From Candidatus Gastranaerophilales bacterium (GTDB taxonomy: Bacteria; Cyanobacteriota; Vampirovibrionia; Gastranaerophilales; Gastranaerophilaceae), in the NCBI GenBank assembly GCA_944326615.1, contig CALVEO010000019.1, positions 1 to 32,683 on the forward strand: a stretch of DNA of 32,683 nt. Direction: 5' to 3'. A program made the translations under genes and the position numbers. This document shows positions 7,830 to 26,916 of this stretch, in pieces. The notes under the pieces were generated by a model, which was not told where the DNA came from, did not search any database, and saw only the letters and a program-made list of their open reading frames with translations. Positions within the stretch are counted from its first letter, which is position 1. The number at the start of each line of letters is the position of its first letter.

Positions 7830-7975
7830 AGGGAGAATGTAGCCGTTCCATCCGCCAAATAGTGTTTGCGTAATTACTTATATTCTTTATCCTCTCACTA
7901 ATCTGGGAGACGGCGCCGCTCTTGACGAGCCTGCGAGTCATTAGAGATGCGGGTGAGGGTTTTATTGGAGGAGAT
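7830..7975 (+). repeat. Mosaic intergenic repeat, copy C
   Basis: The left part has a hairpin of the shared type, GAATG-TAGC-CGTTC (7835-7848), with a T-G wobble. The right part (about 7915-7970) matches the module GCTCTTGACGAGC...GATGCGGGTGAGGGTTT of copy A (23060-23104) with two or so differences. It fills the space between the MCE gene and the ArsR gene; no gene is seen in it. Confidence 0.75.
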
Positions 7976-22847: not shown

Positions 22848-22935
22848 ATTTTAATTTACCCCTTCTTCCTATATCAACAAACTGATGATATCATAAGGCA
22901 ATTATTTTTTCAACTGTCTTCCAAATCCTCTTCCA

Positions 22936-23260
22936 AGGGAGGGGGAACGTAGCCGTTCCATCCGCCATTTGAGTTTTGCATAAGCTTGTTCTGCCATTGT
23001 AAGAAAATATGACGTGTGAAGCGGAACACGCTGCCCCTCTCTCTATGTGAGAGGGAGCAGCTCTTGACGAGCTTGCGAGTCACTAGAGATGCGGGTGAGG
23101 GTTTAACTAGAGGGTAAGAAGGTAAGAAGGTAGGAAGATAGGAGGGTAGGCTGTTTACGGTAAAAGGCTTATCTTCTAATTGCCAAAGTCTACCTTCTTG
23201 TAGTGACAGAGCAAGTTCATGCAAGGCCCAGGTATCGGGTGCAGCGGCTACGCTGCCCCT
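22936..23260 (+). repeat. Mosaic intergenic repeat, copy A
   Basis: Modules in order: hairpin GGAACG-TAGC-CGTTCC (22944-22959); a segment at about 22986-23028 that is found inverted in copy D; module M2 (23029-23117), with its hairpin of CCCTCTC/GAGAGGG; a linker of GGTAAGAA-like units (23112-23150); and module M1 (23151-23260), ending in hairpin GCAGCG-GCTA-CGCTGC (23241-23256). M1 is identical over 110 bp to the reverse complement of 25008-25117. No credible gene is in it; one short minus-strand ORF is low-complexity. Confidence 0.85.
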
Positions 23261-23526
23261 CCCTTGAGGGGAGCGCGAATGAACGAAGGGCGAAACGGCG
23301 GCGCGCAGACGACGACGTTGCAGTCCCGTTATTCGCGAATGAGCAAGACAGGGGAAGTGAAGGGGTGGGTGATATTTAAATGAAAACTATAATTTGTACT
23401 GCTCACAAAAATAACATCTGTAACCAGCTTGCCTTCTTGCCTTCCGAACCTCTGTTCTTCCAGATCGCCCCCCACAAATGTTTCAAGAATAATATCTGCC
23501 TTTGCACACGCAGCATAGTGTAAACA
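23261..23526. other. GC-rich intergenic segment, no gene seen
   Basis: From 23261 to about 23345 the base use is much richer in G and C than its surroundings, with repeated words such as GCGCGAATGA, GGCGAAACGG and TTCGCGAATGAGC. The rest (23346-23526) is ordinary AT-rich sequence up to the XRE gene's stop. I see no ORF or RNA gene. Confidence 0.5.
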
Positions 23527-23853
23527 CTAACTGATAGTAACAAATGCAGCAGCAAGCAATTTATAAATAAGCCGTTTGTTATTCTTATCCTGCTTTTCTA
23601 TAATATCAAAAATAGCTTTATCAAGATTTTCCGGCAAATTAACAGAAGAAAATTTAAAAAATTCTATCAGTTCAACGTCAAAAACAGAAGCGATTTTTTC
23701 CAGCACATGCAGGGAAGGGTAAAATCTGCCTGACTCGATACCTGAAAGCGATGATGTTTCAATATCAATCATTTCGGACAATTGTTCTTGAGTCAATCCC
23801 TTACTTTTTCGTATTTCTTTTATCCGTTTCCCTAATAATTTTTTGTTATCCAT
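23527..23853 (-). CDS. XRE family helix-turn-helix regulator
   Basis: 108 aa from the ATG at 23853 (MDNKKLLG); an earlier in-frame start at 23901 is rejected because TATGAT lies exactly 6 nt before 23853 and the HTH then begins normally. LGKRIKEIRKSKGLTQEQLSEMIDIETSSLSGIESGRFYPSLHVLEKIASVFDVELIEFF is a complete Xre-type domain (about 5-65). The tail (66-108) is charged, ending in a hydrophobic stretch LIYKLLAAAFV. It may act as a repressor of itself or of nearby genes; the target is unknown. It is divergent from the first pseudopilin gene and lies between the two exact 110-bp inverted repeats. Confidence 0.85.
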   Translation of the reverse strand: MDNKKLLGKRIKEIRKSKGLTQEQLSEMIDIETSSLSGIESGRFYPSLHVLEKIASVFDVELIEFFKFSSVNLPENLDKAIFDIIEKQDKNNKRLIYKLLAAAFVTIS

Positions 23854-23941
23854 AAAATAATCATACCTTGATTTGATAATAAAAATAAGTAATAATATCA
23901 CGTTTTTTAATTCAAATTACGTAATAAACACTTTATACCCC

Positions 23942-23970
23942 TTGACAATCACTGAAAAATGATTTAAAAT
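23942..23970 (+). promoter_or_regulatory. Promoter of pseudopilin gene 1
   Basis: TTGACA (23942-23947), a 17-nt spacer and TAAAAT (23965-23970). Transcription near 23977 gives a leader of about 109 nt that holds a TAGTTTT/AAAACTA hairpin and ends with a ribosome site (AAAGGTGA). Confidence 0.7.
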
Positions 23971-24085
23971 AAGTGTATAACTATTAGTTTTATTAAAACT
24001 ATGATTTTAGCATATACAAAATTGAACAATAACATAGAGTAATTTTAAGAGAGTAAATCTTACAAAAAAGAAAGGTGAAAAGATT

Positions 24086-24766
24086 ATGAGAAAAATGAAC
24101 GCATTCACGTTGGCTGAGGTATTGATTACCCTTGGTATTATCGGGGTAGTTGCTGCAATGACCATGCCTACATTGATGAACTCTACACAGGGTGCACAGT
24201 ACAAAGCTGCTTACAAAAAAGCATTGTCTGCCTTGTCTCAGGCTGTTACTTTGAACGTTGCTTTAGATGAATGGAATTTTGCCGATTTAGACGGAACTGA
24301 TGAGACTTACAATTTAACAGATATGTTAACAAGCAGAATGAATGTTGTTAGAACTGAAACAGGTTCCTTTAATGATGCTCAAGGGAATGATTATGCAGTA
24401 AAGAGAAATAGCTCTTTAAAAGGTGGCGGAGGTGAAGTTACTGCACCAGGAAATGGTAATACAACATTATTCTTCAATGATGGTATCATGTTTACATTCA
24501 AAAATACAGCTAAAGAATGTACATTAGGTACTGATGAAGCAGGGCTTACACCGGCTAAAAGAGCAACATTAACCACAAATGGTTGTATGGGCTTTATTGA
24601 TGTAAACGGTATCAAGGCTCCGAACAGACTTGTACAATGTGATGTCGGCGGCGAAGGTACAGATTGTGAAATCAAGAGCCCGACAGATGTTTATCCTGTA
24701 ATCTTCTATGATCAAACAATCATGCCTAACTCTGAAGCTGCCAGAGCAGTATTGTACAGCAAGTAG
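24086..24766 (+). CDS. Type IV pilin-like (pseudopilin) protein, paralogue 1
   Basis: 226 aa. The short basic leader MRKMNA is followed by FTLAEVLITLGIIGVVAAMT with Glu at +5, the N-methylated prepilin signature. The residue before the cleavage point is Ala rather than the usual Gly, an oddity. The C-terminal domain has four Cys in two pairs (ECTLG/TNGC and QCDV/TDCE), likely disulfide-linked outside. It would be processed by a prepilin peptidase and assembled in a pilus or pseudopilus. It is a close paralogue of 25447-26112, with the middle variable and both ends conserved. The last 30 nt before and into the start are identical in both genes. No pilus machinery is in this window. Confidence 0.88.
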   Translation: MRKMNAFTLAEVLITLGIIGVVAAMTMPTLMNSTQGAQYKAAYKKALSALSQAVTLNVALDEWNFADLDGTDETYNLTDMLTSRMNVVRTETGSFNDAQGNDYAVKRNSSLKGGGGEVTAPGNGNTTLFFNDGIMFTFKNTAKECTLGTDEAGLTPAKRATLTTNGCMGFIDVNGIKAPNRLVQCDVGGEGTDCEIKSPTDVYPVIFYDQTIMPNSEAARAVLYSK

Positions 24767-24787
24767 GGCGAGTGAGCTGAGGCTGGA

Positions 24788-24895
24788 GCGCTTTTGCCGT
24801 TGGGATGACAATCACATAAGGCAAAACGCGAACGAGCACAAATTTTTTAAAAATCGAATCTTTTTGTCGGCGGAGTTTCACCCCGCCGTTTTTTT
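24788..24895 (+). terminator. Inverted repeat and rho-independent terminator after pseudopilin 1
   Basis: CGGCGG (24868-24873) pairs with CCGCCG (24883-24888), followed by T7. Before it, a weaker inverted repeat, GCGCTTTTGCC / GGCAAAACGCG (24788-24798 and 24820-24830), pairs with a one-base bulge. Confidence 0.72.
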
Positions 24896-24928
24896 ATGAG
24901 ATCCTGAACTTGTGTCAGGATTTCATTA

Positions 24929-25135
24929 TTACCCTCTAGTTATACCCTCACCCGCATCTCTAGTGACTCGCAAGCTCGTCAAGAGCTGCTCCCTCTCACA
25001 AAGAGAGAGGGGCAGCGTAGCCGCTGCACCCGATACCTGGGCCTTGCATGAACTTGCTCTGTCACTACAAGAAGGTAGACTTTGGCAATTAGAAGATAAG
25101 CCTTTTACCGTAAACAGCCTATCTTCCTACCTTCC
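24929..25135 (-). repeat. Mosaic intergenic repeat, copy B
   Basis: On the minus strand this reads linker (GGTAGGAAGATAGG), then M1 (25117-25008, 110 bp identical to 23151-23260), then M2 (25017-24929, 89 bp with two mismatches to 23029-23117), sharing the joint CGCTGCCCCT. In copy A the order is M2-linker-M1, so the two are circularly permuted. The hairpin GCAGCG-TAGC-CGCTGC is at 25012-25027. It lies between the two pseudopilin genes. Confidence 0.88.
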
Positions 25136-25261
25136 TAACTTCCAAACTGTATCCTGATAAATTGCCTGACATCTTTTATAACTTCTCCTCTATCCGGATG
25201 ATTTTTACCCGTCTAATCCTTTAGAATTAGTTAAAATTAATTAATAATTTTTGTAAAGCTA

Positions 25262-25446: not shown

Positions 25447-26112
25447 ATGACAAAAAGATTCGGCTTTACACTCGCAGAAGTGTTAATCACATTAGGTATC
25501 ATCGGTGTTGTAGCTGCAATGACTATGCCTACATTGATGAACTCTACTCAAGGTGCACAGTACAAAGCTGCTTACAAAAAAGCTTTATCAGCTTTATCTC
25601 AAGCTGTTACTTTAAACATGGCGCTTGATGAATGGAACTTTGCTGATTTGGAATCAGGCAGTACTGTTTACAATTTGGAAAAAATGTTAACAAGCAGAAT
25701 GAATGTTGTTAGAACTGAAACAGGTTCATTTAACGATGCTAAAGAAGCTCAATATAAAGGAAGAGTTACAAATAATAAAGGTGCAGGTGTAACTTCTGAT
25801 GTTACAGTTACAAATAATACAACATTATTCTTTAACGATGGTATTATGTTCACTTTCCAGGGTGATGATATTTCAGGATGTACAAGAGGTGCTGATGGTA
25901 CAGATCCTATAACTTCTTTACCTGACTCTTGTAAAGGTTTCATCGATGTAAACGGTATTAAAGCTCCAAACAGAGTTGTTGCTTGCGATGAAGGTACTAA
26001 CGATGATAATTGCCAAATCAAGAGCCCGACAGATATTTATCCTGTAATCTTCTATGATCAAACAATCATGCCTAACTCTGTTGCTGCTAGAGCAGTATTA
26101 TACAGCAAATAG
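25447..26112 (+). CDS. Type IV pilin-like (pseudopilin) protein, paralogue 2
   Basis: 221 aa. The leader MTKRFG has the canonical Gly before FTLAEVLITLGIIGVVAAMT, with Glu at +5. Residues 7-60 match paralogue 1 almost exactly in protein but differ at many third codon positions. Other blocks are nearly identical in DNA, for instance the segment coding for TSRMNVVRTETGSF and the last 80 nt. The C-terminal domain has four Cys (GCTR/DSC and ACDE/DNC) placed as in paralogue 1. It is expected to be exported and assembled like a minor pilin. It is followed by a strong terminator at 26138-26171. Confidence 0.88.
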   Translation: MTKRFGFTLAEVLITLGIIGVVAAMTMPTLMNSTQGAQYKAAYKKALSALSQAVTLNMALDEWNFADLESGSTVYNLEKMLTSRMNVVRTETGSFNDAKEAQYKGRVTNNKGAGVTSDVTVTNNTTLFFNDGIMFTFQGDDISGCTRGADGTDPITSLPDSCKGFIDVNGIKAPNRVVACDEGTNDDNCQIKSPTDIYPVIFYDQTIMPNSVAARAVLYSK

Positions 26113-26584: not shown

Positions 26585-26625
26585 AAAGTACCCGCATTTT
26601 TTAATTCCCTCTCGCTCAAGGAGGG

Positions 26626-26756
26626 GGGGGGGGAATTTCTAGCTGACCTGTGGTGAGAAGGCAGGGAGTCAAGTTGTATACAGTAATGTCATTGCGCATT
26701 TATTGCGCAATCTAAAATTTATCATAAAAAGATCGCGCACCATATGCGCGATGACA
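26626..26756. repeat. G11 tract and 70-bp near-palindrome
   Basis: A run of 11 G lies at 26623-26633, inside a loose AATTCCC/GGGAATT hairpin. Then 26687-26756 is an imperfect palindrome of 70 bp: TGTCATTGCGCAT at the left end matches the reverse complement of the right end at 12 of 13 positions. It contains two nested hairpins, ATTGCGC/GCGCAAT and ATCGCGCA/TGCGCGAT. It carries no gene. Confidence 0.7.
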
Positions 26757-26794: not shown

Positions 26795-26916
26795 GTTAGA
26801 GAGAGGGGGAACGTAGCCGTTCCATCCATCACATTGGGTGTTGCATAAACTTTGGGTGTCATTGCGAGGGGGAGCGTGCCGCTCTACACGTCACATTTTC
26901 TTACAATGTCAGAACA
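26795..26916 (+). repeat. Mosaic intergenic repeat, copy D
   Basis: Hairpin GGAACG-TAGC-CGTTCC at 26808-26823, as in copy A. The right part (about 26866-26916) is the reverse complement of copy A's 22986-23040 segment with a few changes, so this module is inverted relative to the hairpin. It stops a few bases before the stop codon of the U32 gene. Confidence 0.78.

Follow-up and report, generated by a model that had tools for sequence, protein, structure and literature searches.

The two inverted repeat copies A and B, which enclose an XRE-type regulator gene and a prepilin gene in Candidatus Gastranaerophilales, a gut lineage that is related to Cyanobacteria and has not been cultured, are very probably two independent and fairly recent insertions of non-autonomous, hairpin-rich mosaic repeats and not the ends of a segment that is moved or inverted. 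For the window, i.e. the whole stretch of 32,683 nucleotides that was analysed, this reading does away with the tempting idea of an invertible pilin switch in favour of a dispersed repeat family for which congeners show repeat-free sites. The same modules as in A and B appear to encode, elsewhere in the genome, the leaders of prepilin genes, with a single orientation and in frame.

Inverted repeats at the malQ-U32 locus

Positions 23151-23260 (- strand, copy A) are the exact reverse complement of 25008-25117 (+ strand, copy B), and this match of 110 bp at a distance of 1.75 kb is far beyond chance. It is surrounded by imperfect inverted arms (23126-23264 and 25004-25142, 139 nt, 5 mismatches), and an adjoining inverted match connects 23028-23125 with 24921-25018 (98 nt, 5 mismatches, two of them in the first 89 nt). 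The sequence comparison bears out the original prediction of 110-bp arms without mismatch and of an 89-bp M2 module with two mismatches, while the module mapping confirms that the order of M2 and M1 is circularly permuted between the copies. On the + strand copy A shows the order M2, heptads, M1 and hairpin HT, all of them in - orientation; copy B, when reverse-complemented, reads heptads, M1, HT and M2, a circular permutation of copy A.

Copy A belongs to a composite insertion of ~612 bp in the gap between malQ and the XRE gene (22917-23528). It comprises an HT module with the hairpin GGAACG-TAGC-CGTTCC and a tail (22944-22988, +), a V module (22989-23032, +), M2 (23035-23101, -), a heptad linker of AAGGTAG-like units (23107-23144, -), M1 (23145-23206, -) and an HT module of the GCAGCG-TAGC-CGCTGC variant (23208-23256, -), followed by the dispersed modules F (23264-23340, -; 4 copies among the own loci examined) and G (23381-23450, +). 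In a check for terminal repeats of the MITE type, the ends (72 bp) of the copy A core at 22934-23266 were alike at 74%. Copy B (24898-25176) is located downstream of the prepilin 1 terminator and holds M2 (24945-25011), HT (25012-25060), M1 (25062-25121) and a heptad linker (25123-25148), all on the + strand. Both copies lie outside genes, the coding frame of A is broken, and the predicted folding of their transcripts beats that of shuffled sequences (z -7.9 for copy A, z -5.5 for copy B). A third local copy with HT (+) and V (-) occupies the gap between prepilin 2 and the U32 peptidase gene (26808-26914) and is absent from congener G001, and an HT(+)/M2(-) fragment is found elsewhere in the window (7835-7959). 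The left edge of insertion B carries the palindrome ATCCTGAACTTGTGTCAGGAT (24902-24922), apparently another repeat type.

Among 22 long M1 copies, A and B form the sole identical pair; the next pair reaches 97% identity, the next relative of A and B 94.5%, and the median of all pairs is 83%. The identity of 100% compared to this median points to a recent common source or to local homogenisation.

A dispersed family of repeat modules

Copies A and B are not a private pair but members of a dispersed mosaic family. With copy A as query, 87 matches were obtained all over the own genome, which was searched as a draft of 1.96 Mb in 78 contigs (98% complete), so that the number of repeats and their layout near contig ends carry some uncertainty; contigs C6, C22, C30, C36 and C46, for example, end within repeats. 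For 33 further stretches of this genome the repeats were divided into the modules HT (hairpin GGAACG/GCAGCG/GGAGCG-TAGC-stem plus tail), M1, H7 (the heptad linker), M2, V, W, G and F, and the loci examined contain 59 HT, 39 M1, 48 H7 and 24 M2 in total. The directed neighbours in the 34 own loci were M1>H7 (32), HT>M1 (22), M2>HT (15), HT>V (11), HT>HT (9) and H7>M2 (7), with a period of ~60 bp for HT>HT and with neighbouring HT copies mostly head to tail. The modules follow a fixed cyclic order, M2>HT>M1>heptads>M2, and A and B represent this cycle in two different phases. Since the order is fixed, permutation is a genome-wide property, and the earlier expectation that it stems from tandem units agrees with this tandem-like cyclic chain.

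The HT core is present in 104 copies here and in 0-36 copies in 32 congeners, and a reversed-pattern control gave zero. M2 occurs 25 times here, twice in G017, the closest relative, and in none of the 31 other congeners, which argues for a young burst. The HT stem shows covariation, with 29 two-sided compensated cells compared to 11.7 in shuffles and 94.7% of the cells paired. As a short palindromic hairpin of high copy number, HT is mainly intergenic (26 of the 31 classified clusters lie between ORFs). Across 84,980 genomes the HT pattern was found in 8 stretches, most of them titled Candidatus Gastranaerophilales, with records of the own genome perhaps excluded, and an Rfam search with the repeats matched no family.

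The pneumococcal BOX, RUP and SPRITE elements are modular clustered repeats as well, some of them with open reading frames (PMC3049150). Variable module number, clustering, structured RNA and few or no copies in other species are features shared with the family described here, whereas sequences and host are unrelated, and a long in-frame tie to one gene family, the prepilins, distinguishes our repeats from these elements. BIMEs and REP elements are short palindromic intergenic repeats that form mosaics with other modules (PMC2817692, PMC3733652). HT resembles them, being short, palindromic and intergenic, with ~100 copies, mosaics and compensated stem changes.

It is nevertheless unlikely that the repeats are REP/BIME elements moved by the RAYT of the window. 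The ORF at 130-660 does encode a REP-associated tyrosine transposase (NF047646, E 1e-38; TnpA_REP structure 4er8, E 2e-23) and the only Y1_Tnp in the genome, and congeners with RAYT have somewhat more HT (one-sided p 0.033, or 0.09 without the own genome). However, the cognate hairpin of this RAYT, GTAG + GTTGGGGTTTCTACCCCAAC, differs from HT and occurs at 4 sites in the genome. The unpaired GTAG or CGTC foot of the REP family is absent from HT (GGAACG-TAGC-CGTTCC), where GTAG spans stem and loop, and the RAYT gene, the only one in the genome, is accompanied by its other hairpin and not by that of HT. Adjacent HT copies, unlike those of BIMEs, mostly do not alternate in orientation. Moreover, G017 and G015 possess 31 and 28 HT copies with no RAYT detected, while G006 has a RAYT but no HT. 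With a different hairpin, and a presence that tracks HT number weakly, the RAYT is a weak candidate for the mobiliser of M1 and M2, and no cognate transposase was found for HT in this genome. The RAYT hairpin itself is located upstream of the gene at 81-105, in a reverse copy at 388-412 inside the RAYT coding sequence, where it encodes VGVETPTYGY, and at two further genome sites.

Gene order in congeners and origin of the insertions

We located malQ and the U32 gene across the genus and compared the gap between both in congeners. The order malQ(-) XRE(-) pilin(+) pilin(+) U32(-) is found on one contig in G001, G005, G008, G011, G019, G020, G025, G026, G031 and G032. G003 and G007 show unchanged orientation as well, there read over contig breaks. 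In this comparison between species, the 12 congeners with both genes all had XRE and pilin in the same orientation. G010, G022 and G028 have one pilin in the gap and no XRE was detected there, and G002 has a single pilin on the opposite strand. None of the congeners compared contains M1, M2 or HT in the malQ-U32 gap, while some have single V, W or H7 matches. Sites without A and B are readable in the alignments: the copy A insertion is absent in G001, G026, G003, G005 and G031, and for copy B the window positions 24895 and 25171 join in G001 (L089, 1743/1745). Because congeners possess the gene block without the repeats, the genes are the older part of the locus and the repeats were added afterwards, at two points. 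We therefore read the XRE-type regulator (HTH_3; 23527-23901, -), prepilin 1 (N_methyl, with a short leader; 24086-24766, +) and prepilin 2 (25447-26112, +) as ancestral at the locus, and A and B as two later insertions.

According to this reading, the insertions would have entered intergenic gaps of the old block malQ-XRE-pilin-pilin-U32. That A and B are nearly identical and oppositely oriented would be due to a recent source common to both or to local homogenisation, and permutation would arise as modules propagate in pieces of a cyclic chain (M2-HT-M1-heptads)n. We infer a spread via a trans-acting activity, complemented by tandem duplication or recombination. The motif AACTG at both edges of the copy A insert (22912-22916 and 23529-23533) is suggestive of a 5-bp target duplication; it is seen for copy A only, junctions of this kind share a 5-mer by chance in ~10% of cases, and as an argument for independent insertion it is weak by itself. 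The closeness of A and B and their inverted spacing of 1.75 kb are also explicable by local recombination, including inversion.

An inversion of the XRE/prepilin 1 segment by recombination at the 110-bp arms, as the original prediction had envisaged, is nonetheless very unlikely. The exact inverted arms are long enough for RecA-type recombination, and no other M1 pair in the genome is as much alike, but the 10-12 congeners without the repeats keep a single XRE/pilin orientation. No site-specific recombinase was found near the locus by a Pfam scan of the surrounding ORFs, which identified XRE, the two prepilins, malQ, U32 and one small ORF without match. Inversion by homologous recombination between A and B is possible but unsupported, and given ~100 sister repeats in the genome it would be a by-product rather than a purpose. 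That A and B bounded a composite transposon or cassette that carried in XRE and prepilin 1, as near-identical inverted ends around two genes may suggest, has next to no probability, since congeners hold both genes in place without such ends.

Two other loci were considered as unoccupied sites. L046 (enolase upstream) was rejected, as its flanks lie at different places in congeners, and the boundary at L050 is blurred, since congeners carry other tandem repeats in that gap. The orthologous gap in congeners (L118, L122, L123) contains a different tandem array of ~63-76 bp with GTTAAGCGGCACGCTT-type hairpins. Occupation of the same gap by different repeats suggests an insertion hotspot behind an RNA-gene-like terminator.

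Prepilin leaders built from modules

Beyond the two insertions A and B, several repeat clusters of the family overlap open frames that terminate in AFTLAEVLITLGIIGVVAAMTMP. A genome search revealed ~107 prepilin N-termini of this type, which is an unusually large repertoire for 1.96 Mb. In a set of 88 prepilins with 700 bp upstream, the leader is open over at least 100 codons in 33 cases and over at least 200 codons in 16, and HT, M1, M2 and H7 occur within these leaders in one orientation only and in frame. For leaders with an opening of at least 60 codons (49 leaders, 7,809 codons), 409-663 stops were counted in the other five frames; since this set was selected for openness, the evidence lies in the length distribution and not in the zero stops, and paralogous leaders share segments and hence are not independent. 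A control with frames +1 and +2 is biased by fixed stops near the pilin in the shared proximal leader, which makes the stop count over the same segment the better measure. Of the 25 M2 copies, 7 are followed by a prepilin within 800 bp, compared to 1.1 expected (p 7e-5), 5 of these copies being in coding orientation, and module clusters are open across their full length in 9 of 10 cases within leaders versus 12 of 24 outside.

Leaders of up to ~270 codons with in-frame mosaic repeats were seen at L049, L055, L057 and L059 and upstream of further prepilins. A 20-aa unit in tandem, AFTLAEGATHVVHFDDIRRA, occurs upstream of AFTLAEVLITLG in prepilin leaders, and THVVHFDDIRRA is an example of a peptide from leader modules.

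Rickettsia palindromic elements (RPE) are palindromic repeats that are read in frame in protein-coding genes (PMC10969869). The leader copies, as opposed to the extragenic copies A and B, are likewise palindromic repeats in frame within coding sequence. While RPE reside in unrelated metabolic genes, the leader copies belong to a single family of paralogues, where they precede the mature N-terminus, and our repeats also have many intergenic copies.

G/C tracts at prepilin starts

A run of G or C is present in 43 of 104 prepilins (39 of length 10, two of 9 and two of 11), as read from assemblies, in which G-tract length errors are possible and demand caution (PMC9187656). The tract is positioned 21-38 nt after an ATG, which mostly has a good ribosome-binding site. 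As found, two genes are in frame, both with a tract of 11. When one base is added to the tract, 36 of the 42 analysed prepilin genes are open from the ATG to the mature pilin, and two genes with a tract of 9 are open only at 8 (or 11). Although the flanking distances vary modulo 3, 40 of the 42 genes fall into a common frame class, which is strong evidence, as judged from the reading frames, for translation of the prepilin leaders. In the stretches from G017, G022 and G025 the tracts are almost always 10 and the frame is open at 11. Examples of tract loci are L153, L192 and L213 in the own genome and L233, L245, L249, L253 and L261 in congeners.

These data suggest a large, slippage-controlled pilin repertoire. 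It is possible, and we put this forward tentatively, that the modules are the building stock of this prepilin repertoire and that single pilins are switched on by tract slippage. The gene design would consist of a strong ribosome-binding site, the ATG, ~25 nt and a G10/C10 tract one base out of frame, followed by a stop-free leader of mosaic repeats with up to ~270 codons and then by the pilin. Such slippage might take place in DNA, during transcription or during translation, and shared modules would permit leader swaps by recombination. That the tract is uniformly 10 long at different loci and in different species gives a hint of programmed slippage and not of free phase variation, and the frame pattern fits DNA phase variation and programmed slippage alike. 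Within the literature collection searched, no paper connects phase variation and Gastranaerophilales.

In the gut commensal Bifidobacterium breve, G-tract slippage switches pili of two sortase-pilus clusters (PMC9187656). Here too an early G-tract in a pilus gene of a gut commensal sets the open frame. Unlike in B. breve, more than 40 prepilin genes are concerned, and nearly all of their tracts measure exactly 10, one base out of frame; the tract is followed by repeat-built leaders, and switching is putative here. If true, a young repeat burst would lie in frame within one paralogous family behind a G-tract start, and would offer a testable example of how non-autonomous repeats turn into protein-coding elements of a system for surface variation. 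An orphan G11 tract at window 26623-26633, followed by AATTTCTAGCTGAC but by no prepilin, resembles the prepilin start modules.
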